Positions 7,941 to 46,400 of a DNA stretch of 64,000 nucleotides are shown in pieces. The notes beneath the pieces are model-generated. The model saw only the letters and a program-made list of their open reading frames with translations, did not search any database and was not told the origin of the DNA. The position numbers were made by a program, and so were the translations under genes. Every line of letters begins with the position of its first letter. Position 1 is the stretch's first letter. The stretch comes from Schistosoma haematobium (taxonomy: Eukaryota > Platyhelminthes > Trematoda > Strigeidida > Schistosomatidae), in the NCBI RefSeq assembly GCF_000699445.3, contig NC_067196.1, positions 71,679,864 to 71,743,863 on the forward strand, given 5' to 3'.

Positions 7941-9451
7941 AATCTCTCTCATTATAGTGACAACGACATCATTTCGACTTATTTACTACTCATTGTGTTA
8001 ATTTAATCTCATCGTGTTAATGTGGTATGACATTTAGGTCAACATAAATCACCGTTTTTTTTTATCTCAAAGCACACATCACTCATTTAAAACATTGTTT
8101 TCAATTACGTTAAAATGAAACATCGATGAATTTGGTTTTTACATGATAAAGACTTTCAAACCTAGTTAATTCACATAAATTGTTATTACAAATAACTCTC
8201 TGATCAACTGAGAAATATATAAACGCGAAAATCGAAAATGATGGTAGAATGAGAATGTATGTATTCTGTAGTTCTGTACGTACACCTGGTAAAAACATGC
8301 ACTGAAAATAAAATTCAGATATGACAGATTCGCATACATTTTTCTTAAAAAATATCATTCTTAGATTTACGTCTAAATAGAGTAAGTCAATTGGTAGAAA
8401 ACTGTCACGTCTTTTATCAGTTTCAAAAGTTTAAGTGTCTAGAAAGTCATTGGTTGAACATGATTTTATTCATAATAAAAAGAAGTTAACATTCAAATGT
8501 TCTTACTCACACTAAAAATAAAAGCCAAGTATTTTATCATGTGTATAAAATTGTGTCAAGGACAATTGTTAAATCGTTTGATTGTAATAACCCCAAAAGT
8601 ATTTTAGATATCTGGTATGATTTAAATGTAAACTCTCTTATTAACCTTCACAGTAACACGGAAATATTGAGTTGATAACAGAGTATAATGTATAGGACAA
8701 AATATGGTAGACCACCTTTTTATGCACATTTGAAAAATGCTTGTTAAACAGGAATAATACAACACGAATACAAGTGTGGATTCTTTAATACCTTCGAAGC
8801 ATTAATTAATTTAGCTGAGACAACCCATTAAACCATGTTCATGTTTGCTGGGGATAGAAATCCGCAGACATTGAGTAACTTATCATAACTCATTACTTAG
8901 AAAACGTACGTGAGTAGAGCATCTTGATCAAGACAGTCATATTATTAGTACGTATGAAGGATTCATAAAGTAGTCAGCAAACCAAGACAAATACATTAGT
9001 TTGTGAACTCAGTGGTTTTAAAGTGTAGCCGTAATAACTAAGTGACAACGAGATGATAAGGATAAGTTGGTAGAGGTTACATTTGGCACAAACAAAAGTC
9101 AATCGCAGTTACACAGATTTGTTAATTCTTTAATTTTATCAAAATGTGAAAAAATAATAACGTTTGTGTAATAAGCAATAACAAGCAAACATTTATCACC
9201 ATCAATAACAAAACTAGTTTCAATCTTCTGAAAACATACTCGTAAGTAAACATTGTAAGGGATTCAAATTCGAAAATTTGATTTAAAAGTCTAGTACTAA
9301 CCCAATTTCTTATGATAAGAGAGCATGAGATCAAGTATGATGCATTAAAATAGTCGAAAACTTACTTTTCTCAGCACCATAAAACGCATCAGGAAAAATA
9401 CTCCGATAGATGCCAAACCGCTTAGAAGAGGTGAGAGAAACCATGATCCAA

Positions 9452-12400
9452 CTAAATTCAAATGGATAAAACAACGTGACAACAATCAAATCAACGTTAT
9501 CTATTTTAAGAAGTAATGATGCTTACAAGTCATGTTAGGTTGATGATAAACAAAATGTGATATAATCATTATCGAGTATACAATTCATGGGTGATAGTAG
9601 AAAGTCAACAATTAATTTCGTAGACTTAAGTTATTTGCTTATTATTAATATTGGTGTGTTATTTCATTTAGTCTATATTTTGAAACAAAATCTTGTATAA
9701 TATTATCTATGTTATAAGATGCTTTCATAAACGCTGTACGAAAGGTATAATTTCTATTTGTAAAAGTCTCAGAGATTAAAATTCAATAGTTATAACAATT
9801 CACCTAACAGCATGATCTGGTTTACTACAAGGAAATAATCAAAATTATCTAAAATAGAATAAGTTGAACGTTATTTTACACTAAATTGTTCAGTCACATT
9901 TACAGTATTAACATGAATCATCCAGTGAAAAAAATATATCAGAACAGCCGTATATGATGTTGAATATATTATGTGGACGTCATTCTTATAGAGTGGTTAT
10001 AAAAGGCATTATGCCATGGTCAGAATTACTTTCGACCTAATCTATCTTCGATAGTTTTGACTTTTTCCATGGAGAAGCTCAGATTGGACTGCCGAATCAA
10101 ATTCTGAATGCACTTCATTTGAATTTCTGAAATTTTTACAGATATAATTTATAACCAATTTCTTCCGCGACCAATTTTGTGAAAATACTCGCCCAAATCT
10201 CGGCGAGACTTCAATTAGAGTAATAAGCATGTAAAAATGACAGACGACATTGTAAACCCTTGGGTTAATGAAATGAATACTGGTCACGAATGCATATCTG
10301 GATGTTGACAACAACTGAACACTGATGACCAACTTTAACACAGACGGGCGGAATTAAGTCTACATGTTGAACAACTGAAAAGTTTGCAAAAACTTGACAA
10401 TTTCTAATTACAATTTATAAAGATACAGTCTTTAAATATTAATAAGAAATCTGGTAAAAGTATGGTGCGGGGACGAGCCACTCACAGTCAAGAGTGCAAA
10501 TTTTAGGCTTTTGTGTGAAATTCAAAGATTACGTATAATCAACAGTACAAATACTTTCGTATGTCTTTCAAAACGTTTAAAATGATTATAGATAATTATC
10601 TTTTGCAACTGTATAGTGAAAATGATATTACTAAACGCATCAAATGATCAATCCTTTTTCTGTAGATTATATATAACTGGCAAATCAACACTATCCCTAT
10701 AATCCTAACTCTAAACTTTTAATCCTGTAACAAACTTTAACCTGGTAACAGTACATTATATAGACGAACTAATCACATAGTGCCTTTTGTATTCTCGAGT
10801 GAAATTCATTCATCCATATGGCAACAGAGTATTCTTTCACTTCAGCTGACGCCATTTCGTGATGAAAACCCTAACTCTAACTTCGGACAATGTAGGGACT
10901 CCTAAGAATTTTTGGGGTCCTTTAAAGTATTCAAAAAGATGGATGGTCTATATTCATGAGGACGAGTTTATATGTAGTTGTTTCTTCGACTTACAAACAA
11001 AGTAACTTTCAAAAGACATTGATAGATTTATTTCATGAAATCTGTATACAATTCTTTTACATAACCTATCCATTTATAAAATCTACTTCCTGATCGTCTA
11101 GAAACTAGATGGAAATTCGTCGCAGTTGTCTTAAACTCATCCTTATACTGTACTGTTACCAGAAATACTAGCATTAATTCAAAGAAACGTTCACCATTTT
11201 CATAATTTACAATGGATATTACATTTTTATCCCCTTACTGCTCTAGAAAGCATTCATTTATGGTAATTGTTAAAAGTGTACATCAGAAAATTAAACGATT
11301 ATTAAAACAATGCAATTGTAAGTTGAACTTGCACAGAAATATGTTGTGGCTAAAAATAAAATCAAATGATAAAAGAAATTTCGTGATCAGTAAGTAGATC
11401 GGTTTAACATAAGATGGTTAATGTTAGCATCCAATAATTACATTTTGAGTGTGTCTACATTGGTTACTGTCAACATGAGAATATTTCAACTTTTCCTAGT
11501 CTACCAATAAGAATTCTTAAAATCGTTTGAAACTGACTAGTAAACATATTAGTTCGGACAAAATTTTATTGGACACAAAACTCAGTTAATATTTTCGATT
11601 CGAGATTTCCTTAAAAACAGATTTCCAGTAGTTCTTTTTAAGAGAATTAAGTTTACGTTCCTTATTATCAATAAATTATGGCTCGCTCCTTGTTCATCAC
11701 CAAACCGAATCATTTAAACACATGAATTAAAAATACCTTTGGTTTCAACAACAGTTAAGTATTGTAGTAATTTGTTATATTAGTTATACAATATAATAAA
11801 TAATTTGTCGATAAGAGAAATATTTGATTTTGATACTTAATAATCTTGTTGTCCAAGAAATATAGGTTAAAGAGCTTGACTAAGTGATTAAAGTTTGGTG
11901 AAAGCCTAACGTATATTAACTTATTGACTTGTTTATTCAAATAATCATATCTTGACAGGTTATATCACCGGAGTTTTAGTCACAGATAAGCCAAAAACTT
12001 AATTTCATGCAGTCAAACAGTTAACTGGAGAATGAAGGAAATTTCACAGCTTATGTAATAATTTGTTTCATTACACGCCTACGTGACTTATTCAAACATT
12101 TGCACAGAATTTATTCTAATCTTTCCAGTTATTCTATGACACATACATTTATTCTCGTTAATTAGTCCAGTGCAAGCTTGAGCACGTTTTGTACATCTGT
12201 GTATAATAGTACGTATATGCATATCCCATTCCTGTATTTCTTACATGATTTATAAAACCTGTCACCTTACTATTCTCTGAGTCGGTGTACTACCGAACTT
12301 CAGTGATTTGTACACTCTGTAGACCTTTTATTTGTTTGTCTGTCATTCGACATCAGCATGTTTGAAGTATACGTACAAGTCGTGCTTGACTTTTATTATC

Positions 12401-12693
12401 TAAGTTGTATCAACATGATTTTTCGACAGAATGTATACGAAGTAAGTAGGATATACATTTCATTAGTCTGAAAATATGTCTTCTGTCTAGTTCACTTATT
12501 TATGGAGAACAATTCATTCTGACCAGTCATATCAATTAACATAAGTCTATACAGCATGAATGTATCTAAAGTCAAGTGAGGAAACTGAACAAATTTATCC
12601 CACTTTAAAAAAGATAACTAGTCCTTTACAAGGTATCATTACCAAGGTTTGATTTGATAATTTCGAATGAATTGAGCATTGGGTAGATTGTTA
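9452..12693. other. Intron 3 equivalent of the inverted gene copy, mostly featureless
   Basis: AT-rich. The only structure I see is a small dispersed motif at about 10850-10890 (cgtgatgaaaaccctaactctaac) that recurs at 24070-24165, 30640-30715 and about 52160-52205. The mirrored right-arm stretch is 41834-45078. Confidence 0.5.
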
Positions 12694-12920
12694 TAAATAA
12701 ATAATATATTTGTAATATCCTAATGAGTAGAAAATTAGATTTTCTGACGTTTCGTGACTTAGTGTAAGTCACTTCTTCAGAGAATAAATAACCAAATTAA
12801 AATTAATCCAAGTTTAATTTGGTTATTTATTCTCTGAAGAAGTGACTTACACTAAGTCACGAAACGTCGGAAAATCTAATTCTCTACTCATTAGGATATT
12901 ACAAATATATTACTTATTTA
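12694..12920. repeat. Nested foldback palindrome (108-bp arms, 11-bp loop) in left arm
   Basis: 12694-12801 is the near-perfect reverse complement of 12813-12920 around the loop at 12802-12812. Arm pairs sum to 25614 throughout, so there are no indels; I noticed only a few mismatches. The arms include cctaatgagtagaaaattag and acgtttcgtgacttagtgta. The same structure occurs in the right arm. It is most likely a foldback/MITE-type DNA element; I see no flanking duplication that proves this. Confidence 0.85.
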
Positions 12921-13319
12921 CAGCCCTTTACAAGTTTTTAAAAAACTATTTTGGGAAAACTTAACTAAGCTCTGTATGAAAATATTTGATTTATAGTTTA
13001 TAAAAACGAATGAAAGGAATTACACAGAAAATAAGGTCCAAGTCACACGATTAAAGTCAATTCTATCCAATAACAACATTAGCTATCGTTACCATCCTAT
13101 AATATGGCCATGATAGCATTCCATATTTATGTACAAACAAATAAAATGAACAGTTCTACATGTACAGTTGCATAAAATATATGTAAAAACAGGATTATTA
13201 ACAGTCAAGTTATCAAATTATGTAGTATGAATATATTATACAAAAAGTTAATACTTATTCAATCCTTATAAGTATAAAGTGTCAATAAGTAGGACAGTAA
13301 ATTAATTATAATCATTATT

Positions 13320-13476
13320 GGAAGCAGACATCAAAAGGATGAATTGCAACTGAAAATAACTGCAAAGGATTGCTCATGACAGTGTTGGCTGCAGAATGCT
13401 GGTGGACGACCTATGCTCCTCCACGATGGGTAACAGGCATAAGCATGTAAATATTATTATTATTATTATTATTACT
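13320..13476 (+). mobile_element. Short RTE LINE 3' tail with (TTA)n, left arm
   Basis: About 110 bp matches the very end of the element at 1972-4713 (aaggattg...cagaatgctggt...cctc..cga..agtaacaggc), then a TTA microsatellite. In that element the corresponding frame ends with a short Trp/Arg-rich tail. This is an extreme 5' truncation. Mirrored at 41046-41207. Confidence 0.65.
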
Positions 13477-14679
13477 CAATAATTTGGCATATTTAATTGA
13501 ACTGTCATGCTATAGACACGAATGTAGGCAAAATATAATAAAATCCTGAAATTGACGAAATTGATTACAGTATTTTTAATGTGAAGTAAATCTCGAAAAG
13601 GTGTATTTTTCTTATTTAAACAGGGAAAGTCATGTAACTTTCAATAAAAAAGACCAATGTGAATGAAAAGTAAAGCCTGGAAATACAATGTAAGTTACAG
13701 TATTTAAATAGTATCATGTTTCTTCTCTAAATTACTTACAACACTATTATTATGATTATAAAACTGCTCAGTAGTTCAAGGAATAAAACTATTATTTGGT
13801 CTATGAGATTATTCATTATATTTAGTTTATCTTAGTCCACTATTATATAAATCACTACCGTCATAGAATATATAGATTTCCCATCCAACCAATGTGATCA
13901 CTTAAATTACAGCAAGTACTATTCATAATTAGGTGGTGAAGACTCAGCATTATCAAACCATGAACAATAAATACATACTAACTAATTGTAGCATTTCATA
14001 GCGGAGCAAAAAGAGAAAAGTGTTGAAGTAAACACGAAGAATATAGGCAAACAGAAATATTATTTCTAAAATACCAAAGCGAAGGACAAATAAACAATGG
14101 AACAAATAGCAAACTGGTCAGAAACGATTAAATTCTCACTACTTGAAGAAAAATAAATACGAAATATATCTTTGCACCGATGACATCATACTCAAACGAC
14201 TGTATCTAGTGTTCTCCTGTAAATATAAATCAGATGTAAGTTTTGCTTTGGATCTTAGATACCTCATTCTACTGCGAAATAGATCTATGTTAACTTCGTT
14301 TTCAAAAACTGAGACTACTATTATTTAATTTTGTTCTAAATATAGAAAAGCGAAACATTACTTCAAGCAACTCGGTGTATTATATTTTTGCGTTGTTTGT
14401 GGAACCATCATTGTGACAGAATTTGCATATGCATATAATTTTACATAAATAGTAGAAATCAGCTGAGTGAACACATACAATCATTGTTGAGTCAGATGAT
14501 GAAATATACCGTCTAATCCTGATCACCTAACATGGGAAAACACATCAATAAAGTAAGTTTAATCCAGGAACAAACTGTTTGACTATATACATAGTGTGCA
14601 GTAGAAACTGTTCCAAAACGTATAACCATATATACAAAACACAATACGTATATAAAATCTAACACTTATCACCTTTGTT

Positions 14680-14850
14680 CTGTAGACAGGAAGTCCTGGG
14701 TTCGAATCCCGGTTCTGGGATCGTGGATACACACTACTTAGGAGTCGCACGCTAGAATGAAAAGGCAGTCTAGTGCTTCCAATTTTCGGATGGCTGTCTG
14801 ATTTAAATCGGTTTGTGATTTCATTGAAACTCAACAATCTCCACAACCTC
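14680..14850 (+). repeat. tRNA-like (SINE-like) repeat with B box, left arm
   Basis: Contains gtcctgggttcgaatcccgg, a near-consensus Pol III B box (GGTTCGAATCCC) in a short T-arm-like hairpin, followed by a body shared with 320-520. There is no full cloverleaf, so it is a tRNA-derived repeat rather than a tRNA gene. Twin at 39670-39840 on the minus strand. Confidence 0.55.
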
Positions 14851-16589
14851 AGACTGACAAAAATGTTTGACGTATTATGATTCCCACGTAGTTAAAAAGC
14901 GATAATAAGGAAAAACAGACTATGTTTAGATTTTGTAATGTAACTTTTATAGCTTATTAATTATCAGAATGTCTTATGATTTAAAATCTCTCCTAGGTTT
15001 TATCAAATCATCCGTTTTCTGTTAGGCTTTTCTAAATCATGTGGATTATCCTACGCTCCAGCATAAGAATACAACAAAGTGAGATTTACGAAATATTCTG
15101 TAGTTTACTATTGAAAATCAAGGTGCATAAAGTACATTATATAGATAGCCATGTCTAGTTGTCTAGGCCTAAGCAGTTATTTATTTATCAAAAGGGAACT
15201 AGATTTTACCAATAGCAATAGCTATCGTAAGAAAAATAGTTTAATTCATAAAGATACTGTGAGGAGCATTAATGCTTAAGCATTTGACGCATAAAGGGAC
15301 AAATTACTTACATTTCTAAACATTTCTAAATGGTAATAATAACTTTACTAACAAGTAGAATTCATGCTGTTCAAGTTTGAAATGGGACTCAAACTACAAA
15401 GTTATGAATTCGTATGAAATCATAATCATTCATATAGGGTTAAAATCTCTACTACACGAATAAATAACTACTGCAGTATCGAGTAAACAATATCACTACT
15501 AAATAATTTATTCTCATTAAATTATCAAAAGTGTATTCAGAAAAATAATTATCATGTTCATTATCTTTATATTAAAAAAACTCTTACCAATTTTGAGTAG
15601 TCCTTTCCATTGAATAGCATTGAGTCCAAAAACAACAAGACTAAAACCCATCGTTGCACCTACAATACTATGTGTGCCAGAGACTGGAAGACGGAAGAAT
15701 GTAGCAACCAAAAGCCAAATACAAGAACCTATAGACAAATGAAACAAATATAACAGAAAATGGTAGAAAAAGGTTACTCGAAATAGTGAATACCTCCGTA
15801 AACTCTATCAGTATATGTATAATTCTATGAATACAGTTTACTGATGATAAAAGCTTATGATTATCAAATACATCCACTTAATGTCAATTATTTGATATTC
15901 GAGTTTAATTAACTGATATGCGCCCGTCAGAATAGAGATTAAGAAAACTGTCAGAAGTTATCTTTTAACCATTATACTAACTATGCTACATACCTGAAAT
16001 AATCTCAAAATGTTAGAGTTAATCCCAAATTGAATAATACATAATAACAGTGTATACATTTAACTGCTTGTCATGAGTTCATTAGACCCAATATTACAGG
16101 CTTTGAGCAAACATAACATTTGCTAAACAAGTATACAAATATCTAATTGGTTCGTTTTTATTCAATAAAAATAAATAGCATTAAAAAATATGCCTATCAC
16201 AAATGCAACCAATAATAAATTTTGATAAGTCACAAATTATTTTACAACAAAGATTATTTTAACAGGAAATTAGCAATCACCTTGAGAAAAGTAAATATTT
16301 GTTAAGAACATGGAGTATAAATGTGCCAACTTGACATTAAAACTATAATCACAAAAACTACGTTGGATTCTGCACACAGTTTCACTCAAACATAGGATAA
16401 AAACTAACAAATAACTTGACAATTATTTTATCAATATTGTAATAAGTACGTCATTGTTTTGGAATAATAAAATCTCCTTTTAAAACTGACTAAGTATTTA
16501 AGATTTTTAAAGTTGTCATCAAATGTTTTATTGTGCAAAAGACATTAAACAGTTTGGTAACAACTGTAATTTAACAGTTGATATTAGTC

Positions 16590-17160
16590 AATCACAACGT
16601 AGAACCTATACGCATGTACATCGGTTCAAGTTGCCATACCCGAATAGCACAGAAAGATGAAGTTGTTGTCAGGCCAGATCCTAAAATAGTAGAGGTAGTA
16701 GCAGTATCAGTGGTAATAGGCAATATTGGACATCGAAGATATGACTCGAAAAGAAAATATAAATTAGCAGAATAACGACAAAGAATGGATGCACCTGAGC
16801 CGTTCCAAACGATTTAGAGCCATGTCATTCAACGTCTCCAACCATTGATTACGATAATCATGTAACCGTCGACCAGGTAGTACTTATTAACACTAGTTAA
16901 ATCCAGATGTCAGTGACTCCATGGATTGATGTCATGTTTTGGTTTGGCTGCCCCATAGCTTCCCTCCAGCCTACTCCTGCACCAGAAAACATCGACTGTC
17001 GAGGTAGGCGGTGGTTGGGCATACGCAACACATGTCCCAAACACCTCAGTTGATGTAGATTTATTAGATAATCAATCGGTTTCCTATCTTTGCCTAGTAC
17101 TCTATTCCTAACCCAGACATTGAATATTCCGTGATCTCAAAATACACTTCTAGTGGCATT
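16590..17160 (-). mobile_element. RTE (SR2-like) LINE 3' fragment, left arm
   Basis: Minus-strand copy of the last part of the RTE at 46240-47955: a VLGKD...[15 protein letters not shown] block, then the 3' UTR ending near the tggcaacttgaaccgatgta tail. In-frame stops and deletions make it non-coding. Twin at 37360-37930 (+). Confidence 0.75.
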
Positions 17161-17165
17161 ATATC

Positions 17166-17626
17166 TAACTCCAGTTAGATCGTTTCTGATTGTTATCGAG
17201 ATATATACATGTTGCCAATCCTCGACTTAACTCGCGTTAGTGAATAACGGAATTAAAGTAAGACAAATACAAGAATGAGTTTTGAATAAGTATATTTTGT
17301 ACAATCATTGATCGGAATAGACAATCAGAAAGACGGAGCGAAGGAAGAGAAGAGGAGAGAGTGAAACGAAACGAACCGGAGAAGATATGTCAATCAAATC
17401 AACTGAACCAAGAGTTACTCAATATTTCTAGTCAGACAAAAAACAGGTTACAGACATGTGATGAGTCGAATAACAAATGCACACACATACGCTTACATAA
17501 AAACGGTCAAGGTTGATAAGCGAATAATTAACAAAGTCAAAAATGTGACTCAAGGAGAATGAATGAATTGGCCTGTCCGAAAGCTAGAATAAGCTATATG
17601 GGCTTGACATAGTGCCAGCCACGTCA
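17166..17626 (-). mobile_element. Solo-LTR-like dispersed element, copy 2 (left arm)
   Basis: Aligns over its whole length to 6798-7253, including the shared run aaatgcacacacatacgctt. It contains a purine-rich stretch (aagaagaggagagagtgaaa) absent from copy 1. It adjoins the RTE fragment at a small palindrome, atctaactccagttagat (17163-17180). Confidence 0.45.
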
Positions 17627-18814
17627 AAGCCCCCTGTAGAAAATAGCGAATTAACCTTAAAATGTCTGTTTTCGAAATTAACACAGAAGATGTGTGCAGT
17701 TAACGTAAACAATAACTAGCGAACAAAAATTGTACTGTATCTGATAGAGTAGTGTCGCGTAAGAAGTGAATGTATTGTCATACTTATGTAAAAAGTACAT
17801 GAATATTGTAAAGATGGGGAAAAATGGAATGTTAGCATGCGATTATGAGCAAATTATCAAGCGTACAAAAAATCAACATACATTTATTTCGTGACTGTTT
17901 GAATGATTAAATGACACGTTCGTATGAGCGATTCAAAATATCGTGAAAACAGAGTGATAAATCGTTCATGGGTATGACAGAGAAATATACCGTGAGAATA
18001 AGTAGGTTGCAAGTTGTCTGATGTATGAGCAGGTAGTAAATATATCGGAAATATATGACATGTGATAGCCATATATCCGCAAAAATGAAAGATAATAACC
18101 AAGTCATTGATGCGATAATTGACCCAGAACAAAATAAAGATGAGATATCCTAGCAAAAAGCTTATCAGAATTAAAGGCATCCACAGACATAACAAATGAT
18201 ATCGAAATGAAAAATGTTTGGTATAGCATTAAAATGATCTCGCCTAAGTAAATGTGTGTAAAAATAGGGCGGAAATGGCACGAAAAAAAATTGAGCGGAC
18301 TCACTCAAGACAGGAAAGTTTTACGTTATTGAATAATAGAAAACAGTCCAGTGAGTTTCAAATGTTATAACGTGAATGGAATGTTCATAAAATTATAATT
18401 TCTTCGGTGAGTGATATGATTGTGTATATGTCATAATCCAATGTCAGCACGAACAAAAATAATAATTCCACGTTAGGTGATGATATGACATTAATGTAAT
18501 CATGAGAATATGATAATTATAGTCATAATGGGACGATCCATCAAAACGATAAGTGAGCAGAGTTGACACGAAGACAAAGTACATATAGGATAATGCGATC
18601 TGAGCATGTCCATGTCGCTGCTGTACCGGTGATGATGAATGCATCGGATTAGAGATTAAGTCGTTTGAGTTCCTCATCTACTAAGTCAGCCACTTTGTCC
18701 GTTTATCACACCCATAGAGTTCGAGATGTACACCGTCTGTCCAGATTTGCAGGATGCGTTTGGTCCGAAATCGAACTTACAACTTTATTAGTGTGATGAT
18801 GATATCATCTATGA
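17627..18814. other. Unclassified block in intron 2 equivalent, left arm
   Basis: Includes a 103-codon hydrophobic minus-strand frame (17884-18195) with no recognisable domain, duplicated in the right arm as 36326-36637. Base composition is less AT-extreme than the flanks and it sits between two transposon fragments, so it is probably another degraded element. The right-arm mirror is 35707-36893. Confidence 0.35.
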
Positions 18815-19780
18815 GGTTATCGAGTTCTTCCTGTCCCGTTTAGCTGGACAGCACACAAGCGACTGTTTATTCGAGTCCCGTCTAGGAAAGCCTGTTTTAA
18901 GTTGGAATTTAATGCTAGACCTACACCAGCGAGGTCACGGGAACTAGCAGTGGGGTCTCCAGTCACTTTTAGGGCAAATCGTCCCGATTCTTTATACTGA
19001 CAAGGTGAGGTCAAATGAATGACTGTACTTGGACCCTGTATGAGCGTTTCGGAGACGCATTACACGTTGATAGCGCGAGACTCTAGGGTTTTAGCTAAAG
19101 GAGCATGTTGTGTCATCCGACACAAGGTTCGAATATTAAAAGCTCCAACATATAGTTTAGAGCATAGTTTCAAGAGACCAGAAATAACATTTCGTGAACT
19201 CAAATCATTAATGTTAGTGGCACGTGGTGATAAAGATAAGTTAGAAGGGTTATTCATTGGGATGAAAGAATTATTAGGAGATAAAGGAGTGGTTCCATCG
19301 TCAATAAGATGACCTCGGGTGCTGATAGTAGTATTAGAATGGTTGTCACTTCCCGGTTGCCCACACCGCAGAAAGATATTTCTTCTTGAGGGACCTGAAA
19401 AGGATGTTGAATTAGTGGTGGTCTTGGAGAACTAGGAGTGTGACCACAGAGCCCAAAGGACAACTGCTTAAGGCCAGTTGCGCACGGGCTTTATATGGGA
19501 CGTTTTGATGAGTTTGCTTCGCACTTCAAAACGCCTTACCGCCGGATGCAGATGCTGGTTGTCCGAAGAAAACACTTTACTGCACCCACACTCCACTACA
19601 GTCAGCAGTACGATCTGGCCTGCGGGCCTTAAGTTGCTGCTTTTAGCATTACCGTCTTCCAACCGACCTCCCTGGTGTGGCAGCACCTAAAGAAACAAGT
19701 GCTTACCCCGACATAGTTCAGTAGAATCATCACGATAGGCAAGTCTGACCACCACATCGATAGCAGCTATGGTCGAGCGA
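18815..19780 (-). mobile_element. 5' region of an RTE LINE (UTR plus start of endonuclease), left arm
   Basis: The minus strand carries an endonuclease N-terminus-like frame with [11 protein letters not shown], then an ETR-type block lost by frameshift, [17 protein letters not shown], and [12 protein letters not shown]. These are the first motifs of LINE apurinic endonucleases in this clade. The GC-richer sequence to about 19780 is probably the 5' UTR, also found degraded at 53090-53490. Twin at 34741-35706 (+). Confidence 0.65.
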
Positions 19781-21039
19781 ACGTTGATATATATAAAGTA
19801 AAATAGCTCATTATCACTAGGAGAATTATTATCATATCAGTTTTATTTAATTCATGTATAACTGTTAGCACCAGAGATTAAATGTAGTTCATTACTTTTG
19901 AAATCCAGAAAAAAGTTATATAGTGAAAAAATACTATTTTCATAGACCTACCACCCAGAGCAGCAACCTGTCCGGCCATTAAGAGTACATGCCCGTTGTC
20001 GATGGTTTGAAAAAGTTCGACACTAACAATACCTTTCCGTATGGTATTGGAAACTTTAGCACCTGAAGAAGCACGCACGTATATATATAACCAAACTAAA
20101 TTTACCTAAAAGAACAGAACCGCTTAATTCACAGATTGTAGCAAGAATACAAGCTTGTTTCAGTGTTAATACTTTGGCCCCAACACTAGTCCCGAATGAA
20201 TTTGCCACATCATTTGCACCAATTCCAAAAGCAAGAATAAAAGCTATTATGAAACCAACGACGACCATCCATATTTGGTCTTCAGGGATCAACATGGTTC
20301 ATAAGAACCAAAGACTGCAAGATAAGATCTTAATATCACACGCTCAAGTAAACTGGTGGGTTGAAAAATAGAAAACAGATATATTGTAGATGTTTGCTGA
20401 TAAACAAAGAAAAACACCAAAGATATATGTATATCTGGTTATACGAACCAAGGTTATAACTTAGATGGATGTAGACCTTCCCTAAGTTTCTAGAGATAAG
20501 CTCAAAATGATAAAACAAGATGATCTATTAGATCACGTGAACACTTCTTTAATTTCAAGATTCGAGCTAGCGTATAACGTTATGAGATTTCATGCATTCA
20601 TGTCAGACATTTTTTCGCCTAAATGTCCAGTTTTGTAATTTTCCCATACTGTTTCTATAAAGTATCGAAGCAAAAAGAGGAAAAATGTATTCCATAAACT
20701 TCATTGTTTGTTGAGCTGGCTTTATAAAATGTAGTCACAAATTTATTGAAAAAGTACACATTATTGAGTAGACGATCGACAGCGCCACAGTATTACTATA
20801 TAGATCTACCCCGGAATTGGTGACACTGGTAGTAATCATGAGCATGTTTGATAACGTATCTCCACTTCAACCCAAGATTTCATCTCTTGAGTAATCGAGA
20901 GCTCTATAGACAGTATCTACAACAATCACCCACTAAGTTCTAAGTTCAACTCTTAAGATGTTAGTGGGTTAGCCATATGAGTAAACATACAGGTAAACAA
21001 CACACTCTAGGATTCAGGTACATCCTGTTTAGTTTTATG

Positions 21040-21601: not shown

Positions 21602-21602
<1 letters not shown>
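21040..21602 (+). mobile_element. Penelope-like element fragment (RT end plus GIY-YIG-type region), left arm
   Basis: In shifting frames I read a degraded RT catalytic region (GYAGDMLVILKR in place of YVDD), FTIKETEDRVLFFDILGNRV (the IPFLDVL-like block), a linker (KASIKSYNSIQNELCSDTN), then AHKPMQPLYFILYRPKD and a Cys/Tyr/His region ending INEHGSAIER. This resembles the RPKD...GIY-YIG endonuclease region of Penelope-like retroelements. Frameshifts break it. It stops abruptly at the ATTT tail of the inserted RTE. Twin at 32919-33481 (-). Confidence 0.6.
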
Positions 21603-21661
<59 letters not shown>

Positions 21662-32917: not shown

Positions 32918-32918
32918 C

Positions 32919-33481: not shown

Positions 33482-34225
33482 CATAAAACTAAACAGGATG
33501 TACCTGAATCCTAGAGTGTGTTGTTTACCTGTATGTTTACTCATATGGCTAACCCACTAACATCTTAAGAGTTGAACTTAGAACTTAGTGGGTGATTGTT
33601 GTAGATACTGTCTATAGAGCTCTCGATTACTCAAGAGATGAAATCTTGGGTTGAAGTGGAGATACGTTATCAAACATGCTCATGATTACTACCAGTGTCA
33701 CCAATTCCGGGGTAGATCTATATAGTAATACTGTGGCGCTGTCGATCGTCTACTCAATAATGTGTACTTTTTCAATAAATTTGTGACTACATTTTATAAA
33801 GCCAGCTCAACAAACAATGAAGTTTATGGAATACATTTTTCCTCTTTTTGCTTCGATACTTTATAGAAACAGTATGGGAAAATTACAAAACTGGACATTT
33901 AGGCGAAAAAATGTCTGACATGAATGCATGAAATCTCATAACGTTATACGCTAGCTCGAGTCTTGAAATTAAAGAAGTGTTCACGTGATCTAATAGATCA
34001 TCTTGTTTTATCATTTTGAGCTTATCTCTAGAAACTTAGGGAAGGTCTACATCCATCTAAGTTATAACCTTGGTTCGTATAACCAGATATACATATATCT
34101 TTGGTGTTTTTCTTTGTTTATCAGCAAACATCTACAATATATCTGTTTTCTATTTTTCAACCCACCAGTTTACTTGAGCGTGTGATATTAAGATCTTATC
34201 TTGCAGTCTTTGGTTCTTATGAACC

Positions 34226-34415
34226 ATGTTGATCCCTGAAGACCAAATATGGATGGTCGTCGTTGGTTTCATAATAGCTTTTATTCTTGCTTTTGGAATT
34301 GGTGCAAATGATGTGGCAAATTCATTCGGGACTAGTGTTGGGGCCAAAGTATTAACACTGAAACAAGCTTGTATTCTTGCTACAATCTGTGAATTAAGCG
34401 GTTCTGTTCTTTTAG
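34226..34415 (+). CDS. SLC20-like gene, coding exon 1
   Basis: Encodes residues 1-63 plus one base: MLIPEDQIW, a hydrophobic helix, the PiT signature [10 protein letters not shown], and the [10 protein letters not shown] stretch typical of the family. The donor is gtaaat. A TGA at 34220-34222 is in frame, so the ATG at 34226 is the first possible start in this exon. Possible 3' splice sites for an upstream noncoding exon are the AGs near 34167 and 34206; I cannot tell which is used. An identical exon lies inverted at 20106-20295. Confidence 0.9.
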
Positions 34416-37400
34416 GTAAATTTAGTTTGGTTATATATATACGTGCGTGCTTCTTCAGGTGCTAAAGTTTCCAATACCATACGGAAAGGTATTGTTAGTG
34501 TCGAACTTTTTCAAACCATCGACAACGGGCATGTACTCTTAATGGCCGGACAGGTTGCTGCTCTGGGTGGTAGGTCTATGAAAATAGTATTTTTTTCACT
34601 ATATAACTTTTTTTCTGGATTTCAAAAGTAATGAACTACATTTAATCTCTGGTGCTAACAGTTATACATGAATTAAATAAAACTGATATGATAATAATTC
34701 TCCTAGTGATAATGAGCTATTTTACTTTATATATATCAACGTTCGCTCGACCATAGCTGCTATCGATGTGGTGGTCAGACTTGCCTATCGTGATGATTCT
34801 ACTGAACTATGTCGGGGTAAGCACTTGTTTCTTTAGGTGCTGCCACACCAGGGAGGTCGGTTGGAAGACGGTAATGCTAAAAGCAGCAACTTAAGGCCCG
34901 CAGGCCAGATCGTACTGCTGACTGTAGTGGAGTGTGGGTGCAGTAAAGTGTTTTCTTCGGACAACCAGCATCTGCATCCGGCGGTAAGGCGTTTTGAAGT
35001 GCGAAGCAAACTCATCAAAACGTCCCATATAAAGCCCGTGCGCAACTGGCCTTAAGCAGTTGTCCTTTGGGCTCTGTGGTCACACTCCTAGTTCTCCAAG
35101 ACCACCACTAATTCAACATCCTTTTCAGGTCCCTCAAGAAGAAATATCTTTCTGCGGTGTGGGCAACCGGGAAGTGACAACCATTCTAATACTACTATCA
35201 GCACCCGAGGTCATCTTATTGACGATGGAACCACTCCTTTATCTCCTAATAATTCTTTCATCCCAATGAATAACCCTTCTAACTTATCTTTATCACCACG
35301 TGCCACTAACATTAATGATTTGAGTTCACGAAATGTTATTTCTGGTCTCTTGAAACTATGCTCTAAACTATATGTTGGAGCTTTTAATATTCGAACCTTG
35401 TGTCGGATGACACAACATGCTCCTTTAGCTAAAACCCTAGAGTCTCGCGCTATCAACGTGTAATGCGTCTCCGAAACGCTCATACAGGGTCCAAGTACAG
35501 TCATTCATTTGACCTCACCTTGTCAGTATAAAGAATCGGGACGATTTGCCCTAAAAGTGACTGGAGACCCCACTGCTAGTTCCCGTGACCTCGCTGGTGT
35601 AGGTCTAGCATTAAATTCCAACTTAAAACAGGCTTTCCTAGACGGGACTCGAATAAACAGTCGCTTGTGTGCTGTCCAGCTAAACGGGACAGGAAGAACT
35701 CGATAACCTCATAGATGATATCATCATCACACTAATAAAGTTGTAAGTTCGATTTCGGACCAAACGCATCCTGCAAATCTGGACAGACGGTGTACATCTC
35801 GAACTCTATGGGTGTGATAAACGGACAAAGTGGCTGACTTAGTAGATGAGGAACTCAAACGACTTAATCTCTAATCCGATGCATTCATCATCACCGGTAC
35901 AGCAGCGACATGGACATGCTCAGATCGCATTATCCTATATGTACTTTGTCTTCGTGTCAACTCTGCTCACTTATCGTTTTGATGGATCGTCCCATTATGA
36001 CTATAATTATCATATTCTCATGATTACATTAATGTCATATCATCACCTAACGTGGAATTATTATTTTTGTTCGTGCTGACATTGGATTATGACATATACA
36101 CAATCATATCACTCACCGAAGAAATTATAATTTTATGAACATTCCATTCACGTTATAACATTTGAAACTCACTGGACTGTTTTCTATTATTCAATAACGT
36201 AAAACTTTCCTGTCTTGAGTGAGTCCGCTCAATTTTTTCGTGCCATTTCCGCCCTATTTTTACACACATTTACTTAGGCGAGATCATTTTAATGCTATAC
36301 CAAACATTTTTCATTTCGATATCATTTGTTATGTCTGTGGATGCCTTTAATTCTGATAAGCTTTTTGCTAGGATATCTCATCTTTATTTTGTTCTGGGTC
36401 AATTATCGCATCAATGACTTGGTTATTATCTTTCATTTTTGCGGATATATGGCTATCACATGTCATATATTTCCGATATATTTACTACCTGCTCATACAT
36501 CAGACAACTTGCAACCTACTTATTCTCACGGTATATTTCTCTGTCATACCCATGAACGATTTATCACTCTGTTTTCACGATATTTTGAATCGCTCATACG
36601 AACGTGTCATTTAATCATTCAAACAGTCACGAAATAAATGTATGTTGATTTTTGTACGCTTGATAATTTGCTCATAATCGCATGCTAACATTCCATTTTT
36701 CCCCATCTTTACAATATTCATGTACTTTTTACATAAGTATGACAATACATTCACTTCTTACGCGACACTACTCTATCAGATACAGTACAATTTTTGTTCG
36801 CTAGTTATTGTTTACGTTAACTGCACACATCTTCTGTGTTAATTTCGAAAACAGACATTTTAAGGTTAATTCGCTATTTTCTACAGGGGCTTTGACGTGG
36901 CTGGCACTATGTCAAGCCCATATAGCTTATTCTAGCTTTCGGACAGGCCAATTCATTCATTCTCCTTGAGTCACATTTTTGACTTTGTTAATTATTCGCT
37001 TATCAACCTTGACCGTTTTTATGTAAGCGTATGTGTGTGCATTTGTTATTCGACTCATCACATGTCTGTAACCTGTTTTTTGTCTGACTAGAAATATTGA
37101 GTAACTCTTGGTTCAGTTGATTTGATTGACATATCTTCTCCGGTTCGTTTCGTTTCACTCTCTCCTCTTCTCTTCCTTCGCTCCGTCTTTCTGATTGTCT
37201 ATTCCGATCAATGATTGTACAAAATATACTTATTCAAAACTCATTCTTGTATTTGTCTTACTTTAATTCCGTTATTCACTAACGCGAGTTAAGTCGAGGA
37301 TTGGCAACATGTATATATCTCGATAACAATCAGAAACGATCTAACTGGAGTTAGATATAATGCCACTAGAAGTGTATTTTGAGATCACGGAATATTCAAT

Positions 37401-40400
37401 GTCTGGGTTAGGAATAGAGTACTAGGCAAAGATAGGAAACCGATTGATTATCTAATAAATCTACATCAACTGAGGTGTTTGGGACATGTGTTGCGTATGC
37501 CCAACCACCGCCTACCTCGACAGTCGATGTTTTCTGGTGCAGGAGTAGGCTGGAGGGAAGCTATGGGGCAGCCAAACCAAAACATGACATCAATCCATGG
37601 AGTCACTGACATCTGGATTTAACTAGTGTTAATAAGTACTACCTGGTCGACGGTTACATGATTATCGTAATCAATGGTTGGAGACGTTGAATGACATGGC
37701 TCTAAATCGTTTGGAACGGCTCAGGTGCATCCATTCTTTGTCGTTATTCTGCTAATTTATATTTTCTTTTCGAGTCATATCTTCGATGTCCAATATTGCC
37801 TATTACCACTGATACTGCTACTACCTCTACTATTTTAGGATCTGGCCTGACAACAACTTCATCTTTCTGTGCTATTCGGGTATGGCAACTTGAACCGATG
37901 TACATGCGTATAGGTTCTACGTTGTGATTGACTAATATCAACTGTTAAATTACAGTTGTTACCAAACTGTTTAATGTCTTTTGCACAATAAAACATTTGA
38001 TGACAACTTTAAAAATCTTAAATACTTAGTCAGTTTTAAAAGGAGATTTTATTATTCCAAAACAATGACGTACTTATTACAATATTGATAAAATAATTGT
38101 CAAGTTATTTGTTAGTTTTTATCCTATGTTTGAGTGAAACTGTGTGCAGAATCCAACGTAGTTTTTGTGATTATAGTTTTAATGTCAAGTTGGCACATTT
38201 ATACTCCATGTTCTTAACAAATATTTACTTTTCTCAAGGTGATTGCTAATTTCCTGTTAAAATAATCTTTGTTGTAAAATAATTTGTGACTTATCAAAAT
38301 TTATTATTGGTTGCATTTGTGATAGGCATATTTTTTAATGCTATTTATTTTTATTGAATAAAAACGAACCAATTAGATATTTGTATACTTGTTTAGCAAA
38401 TGTTATGTTTGCTCAAAGCCTGTAATATTGGGTCTAATGAACTCATGACAAGCAGTTAAATGTATACACTGTTATTATGTATTATTCAATTTGGGATTAA
38501 CTCTAACATTTTGAGATTATTTCAGGTATGTAGCATAGTTAGTATAATGGTTAAAAGATAACTTCTGACAGTTTTCTTAATCTCTATTCTGACGGGCGCA
38601 TATCAGTTAATTAAACTCGAATATCAAATAATTGACATTAAGTGGATGTATTTGATAATCATAAGCTTTTATCATCAGTAAACTGTATTCATAGAATTAT
38701 ACATATACTGATAGAGTTTACGGAGGTATTCACTATTTCGAGTAACCTTTTTCTACCATTTTCTGTTATATTTGTTTCATTTGTCTATAGGTTCTTGTAT
38801 TTGGCTTTTGGTTGCTACATTCTTCCGTCTTCCAGTCTCTGGCACACATAGTATTGTAGGTGCAACGATGGGTTTTAGTCTTGTTGTTTTTGGACTCAAT
38901 GCTATTCAATGGAAAGGACTACTCAAAATTGGTAAGAGTTTTTTTTTAATATAAAGATAATGAACATGATAATTATTTTTCTGAATACACTTTTGATAAT
39001 TTAATGAGAATAAATTATTTAGTAGTGATATTGTTTACTCGATACTGCAGTAGTTATTTATTCGTGTAGTAGAGATTTTAACCCTATATGAATGATTATG
39101 ATTTCATACGAATTCATAACTTTGTAGTTTGAGTCCCATTTCAAACTTGAACAGCATGAATTCTACTTGTTAGTAAAGTTATTATTACCATTTAGAAATG
39201 TTTAGAAATGTAAGTAATTTGTCCCTTTATGCGTCAAATGCTTAAGCATTAATGCTCCTCACAGTATCTTTATGAATTAAACTATTTTTCTTACGATAGC
39301 TATTGCTATTGGTAAAATCTAGTTCCCTTTTGATAAATAAATAACTGCTTAGGCCTAGACAACTAGACATGGCTATTTATATAATGTACTTTATGCACCT
39401 TGATTTTCAATAGTAAACTACAGAATATTTCGTAAATCTCACTTTGTTGTATTCTTATGCTGGAGCGTAGGATAATCCACATGATTTAGAAAAGCCTAAC
39501 AGAAAACGGATGATTTGATAAAACCTAGGAGAGATTTTAAATCATAAGACATTCTGATAATTAATAAGCTATAAAAGTTACATTACAAAATCTAAACATA
39601 GTCTGTTTTTCCTTATTATCGCTTTTTAACTACGTGGGAATCATAATACGTCAAACATTTTTGTCAGTCTGAGGTTGTGGAGATTGTTGAGTTTCAATGA
39701 AATCACAAACCGATTTAAATCAGACAGCCATCCGAAAATTGGAAGCACTAGACTGCCTTTTCATTCTAGCGTGCGACTCCTAAGTAGTGTGTATCCACGA
39801 TCCCAGAACCGGGATTCGAACCCAGGACTTCCTGTCTACAGAACAAAGGTGATAAGTGTTAGATTTTATATACGTATTGTGTTTTGTATATATGGTTATA
39901 CGTTTTGGAACAGTTTCTACTGCACACTATGTATATAGTCAAACAGTTTGTTCCTGGATTAAACTTACTTTATTGATGTGTTTTCCCATGTTAGGTGATC
40001 AGGATTAGACGGTATATTTCATCATCTGACTCAACAATGATTGTATGTGTTCACTCAGCTGATTTCTACTATTTATGTAAAATTATATGCATATGCAAAT
40101 TCTGTCACAATGATGGTTCCACAAACAACGCAAAAATATAATACACCGAGTTGCTTGAAGTAATGTTTCGCTTTTCTATATTTAGAACAAAATTAAATAA
40201 TAGTAGTCTCAGTTTTTTGAAAACGAAGTTAACATAGATCTATTTCGCAGTAGAATGAGGTATCTAAGATCCAAAGCAAAACTTACATCTGATTTATATT
40301 TACAGGAGAACACTAGATACAGTCGTTTGAGTATGATGTCATCGGTGCAAAGATATATTTCGTATTTATTTTTTCTTCAAGTAGTGAGAATTTAATCGTT

Positions 40401-43400
40401 TCTGACCAGTTTGCTATTTGTTCCATTGTTTATTTGTCCTTCGCTTTGGTATTTTAGAAATAATATTTCTGTTTGCCTATATTCTTCGTGTTTACTTCAA
40501 CACTTTTCTCTTTTGCTCCGCTATGAAATGCTACAATTAGTTAGTATGTATTTATTGTTCATGGTTTGATAATGCTGAGTCTTCACCACCTAATTATGAA
40601 TAGTACTTGCTGTAATTTAAGTGATCACATTGGTTGGATGGGAAATCTATATATTCTATGACGGTAGTGATTTATATAATAGTGGACTAAGATAAACTAA
40701 ATATAATGAATAATCTCATAGACCAAATAATAGTTTTATTCCTTGAACTACTGAGCAGTTTTATAATCATAATAATAGTGTTGTAAGTAATTTAGAGAAG
40801 AAACATGATACTATTTAAATACTGTAACTTACATTGTATTTCCAGGCTTTACTTTTCATTCACATTGGTCTTTTTATTGAAAGTTACATGACTTTCCCTG
40901 TTTAAATAAGAAAAATACACCTTTTCGAGATTTACTTCACATTAAAAATACTGTAATCAATTTCGTCAATTTCAGGATTTTATTATATTTTGCCTACATT
41001 CGTGTCTATAGCATGACAGTTCAATTAAATATGCCAAATTATTGAGTAATAATAATAATAATAATAATAATAATATTTACATGCTTATGCCTGTTACCCA
41101 TCGTGGAGGAGCATAGGTCGTCCACCAGCATTCTGCAGCCAACACTGTCATGAGCAATCCTTTGCAGTTATTTTCAGTTGCAATTCATCCTTTTGATGTC
41201 TGCTTCCAATAATGATTATAATTAATTTACTGTCCTACTTATTGACACTTTATACTTATAAGGATTGAATAAGTATTAACTTTTTGTATAATATATTCAT
41301 ACTACATAATTTGATAACTTGACTGTTAATAATCCTGTTTTTACATATATTTTATGCAACTGTACATGTAGAACTGTTCATTTTATTTGTTTGTACATAA
41401 ATATGGAATGCTATCATGGCCATATTATAGGATGGTAACGATAGCTAATGTTGTTATTGGATAGAATTGACTTTAATCGTGTGACTTGGACCTTATTTTC
41501 TGTGTAATTCCTTTCATTCGTTTTTATAAACTATAAATCAAATATTTTCATACAGAGCTTAGTTAAGTTTTCCCAAAATAGTTTTTTAAAAACTTGTAAA
41601 GGGCTGTAAATAAGTAATATATTTGTAATATCCTAATGAGTAGAGAATTAGATTTTCCGACGTTTCGTGACTTAGTGTAAGTCACTTCTTCAGAGAATAA
41701 ATAACCAAATTAAACTTGGATTAATTTTAATTTGGTTATTTATTCTCTGAAGAAGTGACTTACACTAAGTCACGAAACGTCAGAAAATCTAATTTTCTAC
41801 TCATTAGGATATTACAAATATATTATTTATTTATAACAATCTACCCAATGCTCAATTCATTCGAAATTATCAAATCAAACCTTGGTAATGATACCTTGTA
41901 AAGGACTAGTTATCTTTTTTAAAGTGGGATAAATTTGTTCAGTTTCCTCACTTGACTTTAGATACATTCATGCTGTATAGACTTATGTTAATTGATATGA
42001 CTGGTCAGAATGAATTGTTCTCCATAAATAAGTGAACTAGACAGAAGACATATTTTCAGACTAATGAAATGTATATCCTACTTACTTCGTATACATTCTG
42101 TCGAAAAATCATGTTGATACAACTTAGATAATAAAAGTCAAGCACGACTTGTACGTATACTTCAAACATGCTGATGTCGAATGACAGACAAACAAATAAA
42201 AGGTCTACAGAGTGTACAAATCACTGAAGTTCGGTAGTACACCGACTCAGAGAATAGTAAGGTGACAGGTTTTATAAATCATGTAAGAAATACAGGAATG
42301 GGATATGCATATACGTACTATTATACACAGATGTACAAAACGTGCTCAAGCTTGCACTGGACTAATTAACGAGAATAAATGTATGTGTCATAGAATAACT
42401 GGAAAGATTAGAATAAATTCTGTGCAAATGTTTGAATAAGTCACGTAGGCGTGTAATGAAACAAATTATTACATAAGCTGTGAAATTTCCTTCATTCTCC
42501 AGTTAACTGTTTGACTGCATGAAATTAAGTTTTTGGCTTATCTGTGACTAAAACTCCGGTGATATAACCTGTCAAGATATGATTATTTGAATAAACAAGT
42601 CAATAAGTTAATATACGTTAGGCTTTCACCAAACTTTAATCACTTAGTCAAGCTCTTTAACCTATATTTCTTGGACAACAAGATTATTAAGTATCAAAAT
42701 CAAATATTTCTCTTATCGACAAATTATTTATTATATTGTATAACTAATATAACAAATTACTACAATACTTAACTGTTGTTGAAACCAAAGGTATTTTTAA
42801 TTCATGTGTTTAAATGATTCGGTTTGGTGATGAACAAGGAGCGAGCCATAATTTATTGATAATAAGGAACGTAAACTTAATTCTCTTAAAAAGAACTACT
42901 GGAAATCTGTTTTTAAGGAAATCTCGAATCGAAAATATTAACTGAGTTTTGTGTCCAATAAAATTTTGTCCGAACTAATATGTTTACTAGTCAGTTTCAA
43001 ACGATTTTAAGAATTCTTATTGGTAGACTAGGAAAAGTTGAAATATTCTCATGTTGACAGTAACCAATGTAGACACACTCAAAATGTAATTATTGGATGC
43101 TAACATTAACCATCTTATGTTAAACCGATCTACTTACTGATCACGAAATTTCTTTTATCATTTGATTTTATTTTTAGCCACAACATATTTCTGTGCAAGT
43201 TCAACTTACAATTGCATTGTTTTAATAATCGTTTAATTTTCTGATGTACACTTTTAACAATTACCATAAATGAATGCTTTCTAGAGCAGTAAGGGGATAA
43301 AAATGTAATATCCATTGTAAATTATGAAAATGGTGAACGTTTCTTTGAATTAATGCTAGTATTTCTGGTAACAGTACAGTATAAGGATGAGTTTAAGACA

Positions 43401-46400
43401 ACTGCGACGAATTTCCATCTAGTTTCTAGACGATCAGGAAGTAGATTTTATAAATGGATAGGTTATGTAAAAGAATTGTATACAGATTTCATGAAATAAA
43501 TCTATCAATGTCTTTTGAAAGTTACTTTGTTTGTAAGTCGAAGAAACAACTACATATAAACTCGTCCTCATGAATATAGACCATCCATCTTTTTGAATAC
43601 TTTAAAGGACCCCAAAAAATTCTTAGGAGTCCCTACATTGTCCGAAGTTAGAGTTAGGGTTTTCATCACGAAATGGCGTCAGCTGAAGTGAAAGAATACT
43701 CTGTTGCCATATGGATGAATGAATTTCACTCGAGAATACAAAAGGCACTATGTGATTAGTTCGTCTATATAATGTACTGTTACCAGGTTAAAGTTTGTTA
43801 CAGGATTAAAAGTTTAGAGTTAGGATTATAGGGATAGTGTTGATTTGCCAGTTATATATAATCTACAGAAAAAGGATTGATCATTTGATGCGTTTAGTAA
43901 TATCATTTTCACTATACAGTTGCAAAAGATAATTATCTATAATCATTTTAAACGTTTTGAAAGACATACGAAAGTATTTGTACTGTTGATTATACGTAAT
44001 CTTTGAATTTCACACAAAAGCCTAAAATTTGCACTCTTGACTGTGAGTGGCTCGTCCCCGCACCATACTTTTACCAGATTTCTTATTAATATTTAAAGAC
44101 TGTATCTTTATAAATTGTAATTAGAAATTGTCAAGTTTTTTGCAAACTTTTCAGTTGTTCAACATGTAGACTTAATTCCGCCCGTCTGTGTTAAAGTTGG
44201 TCATCAGTGTTCAGTTGTTGTCAACATCCAGATATGCATTCGTGACCAGTATTCATTTCATTAACCCAAGGGTTTACAATGTCGTCTGTCATTTTTACAT
44301 GCTTATTACTCTAATTGAAGTCTCGCCGAGATTTGGGCGAGTATTTTCACAAAAATTGGTCGCGGAAGAAATTGGTTATAAATTATATCTGTAAAAATTT
44401 CAGAAATTCAAATGAAGTGCATTCAGAATTTGATTCGGCAGTCCAATCTGAGCTTCTCCATGGAAAAAGTCAAAACTATCGAAGATAGATTAGGTCGAAA
44501 GTAATTCTGACCATGGCATAATGCCTTTTATAACCACTCTATAAGAATGACGTCCACATAATATATTCAACATCATGTACGGCTGTTCTGATATATTTTT
44601 TTCACTGGATGATTCATGTTAATACTGTAAATGTGACTGAACAATTTAGTGTAAAATAACGTTCAACTTATTCTATTTTAGATAATTTTGATTATTTCCT
44701 TGTAGTAAACCAGATCATGCTGTTAGGTGAATTGTTATAACTATTGAATTTTAATCTCTGAGACTTTTACAAATAGAAATTATACCTTTCGTACAGCGTT
44801 TATGAAAGCATCTTATAACATAGATAATATTATACAAGATTTTGTTTCAAAATATAGACTAAATGAAATAACACACCAATATTAATAATAAGCAAATAAC
44901 TTAAGTCTACGAAATTAATTGTTGACTTTCTACTATCACCCATGAATTGTATACTCGATAATGATTATATCACATTTTGTTTATCATCAACCTAACATGA
45001 CTTGTAAGCATCATTACTTCTTAAAATAGATAACGTTGATTTGATTGTTGTCACGTTGTTTTATCCATTTGAATTTAGTTGGATCATGGTTTCTCTCACC
45101 TCTTCTAAGCGGTTTGGCATCTATCGGAGTATTTTTCCTGATGCGTTTTATGGTGCTGAGAAAAGTAAGTTTTCGACTATTTTAATGCATCATACTTGAT
45201 CTCATGCTCTCTTATCATAAGAAATTGGGTTAGTACTAGACTTTTAAATCAAATTTTCGAATTTGAATCCCTTACAATGTTTACTTACGAGTATGTTTTC
45301 AGAAGATTGAAACTAGTTTTGTTATTGATGGTGATAAATGTTTGCTTGTTATTGCTTATTACACAAACGTTATTATTTTTTCACATTTTGATAAAATTAA
45401 AGAATTAACAAATCTGTGTAACTGCGATTGACTTTTGTTTGTGCCAAATGTAACCTCTACCAACTTATCCTTATCATCTCGTTGTCACTTAGTTATTACG
45501 GCTACACTTTAAAACCACTGAGTTCACAAACTAATGTATTTGTCTTGGTTTGCTGACTACTTTATGAATCCTTCATACGTACTAATAATATGACTGTCTT
45601 GATCAAGATGCTCTACTCACGTACGTTTTCTAAGTAATGAGTTATGATAAGTTACTCAATGTCTGCGGATTTCTATCCCCAGCAAACATGAACATGGTTT
45701 AATGGGTTGTCTCAGCTAAATTAATTAATGCTTCGAAGGTATTAAAGAATCCACACTTGTATTCGTGTTGTATTATTCCTGTTTAACAAGCATTTTTCAA
45801 ATGTGCATAAAAAGGTGGTCTACCATATTTTGTCCTATACATTATACTCTGTTATCAACTCAATATTTCCGTGTTACTGTGAAGGTTAATAAGAGAGTTT
45901 ACATTTAAATCATACCAGATATCTAAAATACTTTTGGGGTTATTACAATCAAACGATTTAACAATTGTCCTTGACACAATTTTATACACATGATAAAATA
46001 CTTGGCTTTTATTTTTAGTGTGAGTAAGAACATTTGAATGTTAACTTCTTTTTATTATGAATAAAATCATGTTCAACCAATGACTTTCTAGACACTTAAA
46101 CTTTTGAAACTGATAAAAGACGTGACAGTTTTCTACCAATTGACTTACTCTATTTAGACGTAAATCTAAGAATGATATTTTTTAAGAAAAATGTATTCGA
46201 ATCTCTGATATCTGACTTTTATTTCCGGATTTGATATATTAGCAATGAGATTAACCGAGGTCTTAGGTAGAATTTGGGAACTGGACGTAATCCCATCTGA
46301 CTGGTCTCAATCACTGATTGTGCCAGCCTATAAGAAAGGACAAAAGTCATCTTGTGACAATCACGGAGTAATCAGTTTGACTAATATAGTGTCTAAAATA

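Follow-up and report, generated by a model that had tools for sequence, protein, structure and literature searches.

Haplotypic duplication in long-read assemblies produces near-identical copies of a locus that differ mostly in homopolymers, and missed-adapter or fold-back reads give a palindrome that lacks a unique spacer. Biological counterparts have also been described. Sequenced human fold-back inverted duplications carry a few-kilobase spacer between the inverted copies (PMC3907307), and sex-chromosome palindromes, as reported for the human Y (PMC3723533) and the willow W (PMC7023750), comprise gene-bearing arms longer than 10 kb around a spacer. Human Y palindrome arms are reported to be 99.94–99.997% identical, and gene conversion to homogenise microsatellites (both PMC4233959), with conversion tracts of about 2 kb on average (PMC3723533). 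A long-read catalogue of S. mansoni lists 311 inversions among 17,446 structural variants (cited in PMC13235503, in whose main text the string 'inverted dup' occurs 0 times). Among literature titles and abstract openings on inverted duplication, palindromes or gene conversion in Schistosoma, we found no structure of either biological kind; overlap in terms was only partial, in a study of flatworm small RNAs (PMC5594548) and another of satellites on the S. mansoni W (PMC8490949).

Here we analyse an inverted repeat in a 64,000-nucleotide stretch of Schistosoma haematobium contig NC_067196.1 (the window). The initial annotation had described its overall geometry; our analysis adds the gene that the arms carry, a PiT transporter, and the direction of the duplication.

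Architecture of the inverted repeat

The assembled sequence contains an inverted repeat (Table 1). Arms of about 15.4 kb around a 7.1-kb spacer had been proposed initially, and both self-BLAST of the window and MAFFT alignment of the arms upheld this layout. Positions 8306–21620 matched 46224–32899 in inverted orientation at 99.78% identity and 21647–23715 matched 32916–30844 at 99.81%; the remaining inverted matches among those listed were the two copies of a hairpin of about 227 bp (12694–12920 and 41607–41833, one per arm), which is 94.7% self-complementary and looks like a fold-back MITE. At the inner edge, arm identity was flat up to the boundary, with the closest substitution 3.1 kb away, and just past the boundary 8/32 columns were identical, which is the chance level. 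At the outer edge, 26 of the outermost 32 columns were identical (chance 3e-10) and 8 of the next 32 outward (again the chance level), so that divergence steps from 19% to almost zero within 32 bp. Self-BLAST and the edge column counts together exclude chance similarity of the arms.

Table 1. Coordinates of features in the window, in order of position.
Feature	Position	Strand	Basis or remark
Left flank (A)	1–8301		Further RTE-like fragments reach about 7940; tblastn at E 1e-3 gives no PiT exon
RTE-like retrotransposon, left flank	2013–4298	+	Pfam RVT_1/endonuclease on ORFs
Left arm, inverted copy	8302–23715	-	PiT exons 1–4 on minus strand; self-BLAST, MAFFT
Left-arm outer edge	8302–8333		26/32 columns agree with right arm
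PiT exon 4, left copy	9366–9451	-	Letter-identical to right copy; last exon detected in left copy
Alternative terminal exon, left copy	13505–13545	-	Coordinates transferred from right copy
PiT exon 3, left copy	15588–15728	-	Letter-identical to right copy; Pfam PHO4 on enclosing ORF
PiT exon 2, left copy	19952–20062	-	Letter-identical to right copy
PiT exon 1 (ATG), left copy	20106–20295	-	Letter-identical to right copy; Pfam PHO4 on enclosing ORF
Spacer	23716–30843		7,128 bp; single copy within window save short dispersed repeats
Dispersed repeat, spacer left end	24023–24148	+	Inverted partner of 30649–30783
Inverted partner repeat, spacer right end	30649–30836	-	Match to another copy stops 8 bp from right arm
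Right arm	30844–46229	+	Belongs to long PiT gene; exons 1–4 and ~3.4 kb upstream of ATG
PiT exon 1, right copy	34226–34415	+	Exon model
PiT exon 2, right copy	34459–34569	+	Exon model
PiT exon 3, right copy	38791–38931	+	Exon model
Alternative terminal exon, right copy	40976–41016	+	AG acceptor before; stop included
PiT exon 4, right copy	45079–45164	+	Exon model
5′-truncated RTE-like retrotransposon	46238–47958	+	Ends approximate, by eye; RVT_1 4.2e-32
PiT exon 5	55184–55280	+	Right flank only (exon model, tblastn)
PiT exon 6	57008–57127	+	Right flank only (exon model, tblastn)
PiT exon 7	59634–59939	+	Right flank only (exon model, tblastn)
PiT exon 8	62070–62242	+	Right flank only (exon model, tblastn)
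PiT exon 9	63671–63781	+	Right flank only; gene continues past window end

Exons 1–4 of a PiT gene lie in both arms

A nine-exon PiT model spans 34226–63781 on the plus strand, with AG before exons 2–9 and GT after every exon; its reading frame is open over 445 aa. Over that length the product shares 99% identity with P0001, an S. intercalatum protein of 587 aa (5/445 residues differ; its cluster has 39 members), and it differs from an S. bovis protein at 5/331 aligned residues. These identities by themselves point to the S. haematobium group as the likeliest source of the window. The right copy belongs to the SLC20/PiT transporters (Pfam PHO4): its exon 1 and exon 3 ORFs match the profile (scanned on the identical left-copy exons), and P0001 spans positions 1–350 of 350 in PHO4 (PF01384), a full-profile coverage that comes from this relative, with the right copy itself read up to exon 9 at the window end. 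A tblastn search of the left flank and spacer with six PiT relatives (E 1e-3, within the window) found none of exons 5–9. These exons lie only in the right flank, and thus the right arm is part of a long gene, whereas the left arm holds a 5′-only copy that ends in intron 4. Unlike an SLC20/PiT transporter, the left copy does not contain the two halves of the protein; within the window it has exons 1–4 only (176 aa) or could specify a 160-aa short form.

The short form corresponds to P0241, a protein of 160 aa from the S. guineensis annotation (8 member sequences, on a 34.6-kb contig). P0241 consists of exons 1–3 and a terminal exon within intron 3, found in both arms; it is encoded in full within each arm, its residues 148–160 match left-arm positions 13546–13508 at 100%, and it covers PHO4 profile positions 1–129. 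It may be a genuine isoform, or it may reflect gene prediction on a fragmentary sequence.

A literature search combining Schistosoma, phosphate transporter and SLC20 returned no papers. Two further observations concern PiT models in related species. The S. turkestanicum PiT proteins P0003 and P0007, each assigned to a contig of 85,426,258 nucleotides, differ at 14/485 aligned residues; every difference falls within residues 69–390 of 581, with none beyond, a lead toward a possible second and diverged copy of the 5′ PiT exons in that species. In one S. intercalatum model, P0002, the stretch 56121–56254 (plus strand), intronic in our model, is read as coding and replaces exon 5 together with the start of exon 6; this is probably a gene-prediction error.

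The arms differ by three core substitutions

The MAFFT alignment resolved 28 groups of differences between the arms. Single-nucleotide and homopolymer changes had been anticipated by the initial annotation, as had one microsatellite difference, of which the alignment revealed two. Nine groups are substitution sites, six of them in the outer 32 bp (8303–8333) and three elsewhere (9953 T/C, 15144 G/A and 20561 T/C, all transitions). The core, defined as the 15,382 bp left once the outer 32 bp are excluded, therefore carries 3 substitutions and is 99.98% identical without indels.

Another 17 groups are homopolymer-length differences, and all indels lie within homopolymers except for the two microsatellites: a tetranucleotide (TTAT) at 21603 with 15.5 units in one arm and about 4.5 in the other, a gap of 11 units, and a six-base TAT/TAA difference at 13451. 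Homopolymer runs were discordant in 14/24 cases at length ≥6 compared with 3/62 at length 5 (6/2,643 discordant runs of length 2–3 were left out of the 17 and ascribed to alignment around microsatellites or substitutions). This dependence on run length behaves like long-read consensus error, which is the probable source of most of the indels. Because the indels behave in this way, core divergence was taken from the three substitutions, giving ~2e-4 per site with a Poisson upper bound of 5.7e-4; any errors among the substitutions would lower this figure. Each of the three might itself reflect consensus error or allelic variation, and the six at the outer edge may derive from an error-prone or imperfectly matched junction.

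Repeats within and around the arms

Retrotransposon pieces were duplicated along with the arms, as the initial annotation had recognised; for example, pieces at 22279–21887 and 32281–32673 have equal scores. Those insertions thus predate the duplication. In the left flank, reverse transcriptase (RT) matches also occur at 6633–7862. Just outside the right arm, the 5′-truncated RTE-like element begins ~10–20 bp from the outer edge; protein P0121 matches 46218–47711 at 93%, with poor agreement before the residues LAMRLTEV. At the inner edge of the same arm, the dispersed-repeat match that ends 8 bp away is 161 bp long. The inverted pair of repeats near the spacer ends is 135 bp long at 75% identity, with a 24-bp perfect core. 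The minus strand of the spacer also bears remnants of an old LINE-like RT (tblastn RT matches at 25878–26514), in which RVT_1 matched 25971–26222 at 1.9e-06, just under the curated cut-off. Three copies of a unit of ~300 bp (24921–25217, 28701–29030 and 29754–30022), 67–69% alike in two pairings, likewise lie in the spacer.

Several elements in the flanks are recorded here as observations in their own right. Intron 4 of the right copy contains, beyond its RTE-like element, the remains of an LTR-type element (RVT_1, RT_RNaseH) at 48323–49062 on the minus strand. A match to Rfam mir-3492 (47061–47138, minus strand, 81.7 bits) is antisense within the RT frame of the 46238–47958 element, suggesting that this microRNA family may be retrotransposon-derived. 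A type I hammerhead ribozyme occupies 432–477 on the minus strand (41.9 bits); hammerhead ribozymes are known from schistosome SINE-like elements. A tRNA scan of the window found none, and a search of viral contigs gave a pattern match for one stretch and no encoded relative of the PiT gene.

Proposed origin of the inverted copy

We propose that the left arm probably arose recently as an inverted duplicate of the PiT gene, truncated to its 5′ half, through replication template switching or fold-back. The initial annotation had offered a very recent event, ongoing gene conversion or a head-to-head joining of haplotypes; the few core substitutions, the flat identity, the 5′-only copy and the 11-unit microsatellite difference, which conversion, if frequent, would be apt to remove, favour the first of these. 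Under this proposal, reverse-orientation copying by a replication fork or broken end would have taken in 15.4 kb from the 5′ half of the gene and stopped in intron 4 beside the 5′-truncated retrotransposon, and the 7.1-kb spacer would be the stretch separating the start point from the fold. Template switching or fold-back is the likeliest maker of the copy, although our confidence in choosing between the two is low. With a mutation rate of 8.1e-9 per bp per generation (a regression estimate) and 0.2 years per generation, both S. mansoni values from PMC4754680, 3 substitutions in 15,382 bp correspond to ~12,000 generations (95% Poisson range 2,500–35,000), or ~2,400 years; the event would be younger if some of the substitutions are consensus errors.

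The closest likeness is to human non-recurrent inverted duplications with a disomic spacer, as described in PMC3907307. Like those, this locus has a unique spacer of a few kilobases (7,128 bp, by comparison within the window) and inverted repeats near the spacer ends, and the proximity of the right arm's edges to dispersed-repeat ends counts in favour of our proposal. It differs from the human cases in PMC3907307 in being interstitial in the assembly, in extending over 15.4 kb only and in showing no terminal deletion or translocation within the 64-kb window. It differs also at the inner junction, which has neither a hybrid repeat nor clean inverted microhomology; this absence of a fold-back hallmark argues against our proposal, as do the six substitutions in the outer 32 bp, which simple copying leaves unexplained.

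Three more specific routes were considered and set aside. A crossover inside the inverted pair of the spacer is disfavoured because the pair begins not at the junction but ~250–300 bp inside the left end of the spacer, separated from the left arm by that much unlike sequence. A longer duplication, split on the right by the RTE insertion, would be expected to resume in the left flank, where no clear homology beyond the element was found: the best score near 1 kb was 29, reached by 5/200 mononucleotide shuffles (maximum 30), a borderline result, and that over the whole flank was 36, reached by 33/200 (maximum 42). A target-site duplication around the left arm was not apparent either, the shared sequences being 8-mers only, none at the edges, in a comparison made without a control.

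If the left arm is such a copy, it may be transcribed pointing away from the spacer, since ~3.4 kb of upstream sequence is retained. Its possible products would then be limited to the short form of 160 aa or a protein ending after exon 4, with no full transporter. Recombination between the arms would occasionally flip the spacer.

Assembly and conversion as alternatives

The strongest competing explanation, which we consider unlikely but worth serious attention, is an assembly artefact in which a contig bearing the gene (spacer, arm and flank) was joined to a piece from the other haplotype or another locus with the same arm, making the left arm or its placement unreal. The 17 discordant homopolymer sites point to an error-prone consensus, and near-identity with differences mainly in homopolymers is the likeness of haplotypic duplication in long-read assemblies; here, however, the copies are inverted, with a spacer between them and unlike flanks. 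The S. curassoni assembly, one from the S. haematobium group, was built from PacBio reads, corrected with those same reads, whose N50 of 16.6 kb barely exceeds an arm (PMC9387932), and the origin of P0241 from a 34.6-kb S. guineensis contig is as expected of a leftover haplotig.

Whether the arms could be two alleles depends on the diversity assumed. At the lowest of the S. mansoni population values for π considered here from PMC9305930, 4.97e-4, 7.6 substitutions are expected and P(≤3) is 0.054, so that three is few yet still conceivable for alleles; at another of those values, 1.45e-3, 22 are expected and P(≤3) falls to 4e-7. The 11-unit tetranucleotide difference also speaks against an artefact, as do the flanks. 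The 8.3-kb left flank and 17.8-kb right flank share only two same-strand retrotransposon-tail matches (76 and 50 bp, 78%), and no inverted continuation between them stood clearly above shuffles. The flanks being unlike, two alleles alone are insufficient, and one or more junctions, genuine or chimeric, must also be invoked; the earlier suggestion of two haplotypes assembled head to head is accordingly inadequate by itself, though possible with an extra junction. The related idea that the left flank is an allelic intron 4 was rejected for lack of non-transposon homology to the right flank, with the reservation that exon 5 could sit just outside the window.

That gene conversion between the arms has preserved the uniformity of an old palindrome, in the manner of a Y or W chromosome, appears improbable. 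The core identity is in line with that of human Y palindromes, and the locus shares with the sex-chromosome palindromes of PMC3723533 and PMC7023750 arms longer than 10 kb and more than 99.9% identical (3 substitutions in 15,382 bp, the outer 32 bp and indels being uncounted), a spacer and a gene in the arms; the 19% divergence of the outer 32 bp could likewise be read as lying beyond the reach of conversion. Conversion would nevertheless be expected to leave a gradient, whereas divergence drops from 19% to about zero within 32 bp at the outer edge and the inner edge has no such step. The tetranucleotide has also stayed at 15.5 and about 4.5 units where homogenisation is expected and, in contrast to the palindromes of those two reports, one arm here holds only a 5′ gene fragment. 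Steady conversion between the arms is not needed to explain the data.

A bolder version of this idea, a flatworm Y/W-type palindrome in the S. haematobium group with conversion-kept PiT 5′ halves, possibly on Z/W, and a left copy serving as dedicated source of the short form, strikes us as very improbable. Among the Schistosoma relatives listed, PiT lies on sequences of 85–91 Mb in five entries (three species) and on a 45.6-kb sequence in S. bovis; the large sequences fit chromosome 1, if this is the largest S. curassoni scaffold (89.6 Mb), or Z (88.18 Mb), sizes given in PMC9387932. An origin in a missed-adapter read fits poorly with the unique 7.1-kb spacer and the unlike flanks.

Implications

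If the left arm is an artefact, the annotation of the PiT gene in this assembly needs correcting. If it is real, the presence of two copies would confound the mapping of short reads, and with it expression counts and variant calling, across PiT exons 1–4. A real left arm would also make the locus a very young inverted duplication in a parasite genome, with junctions that can be read before they decay, and would provide a natural half-gene copy that has retained its upstream region, next to a spacer able to flip.
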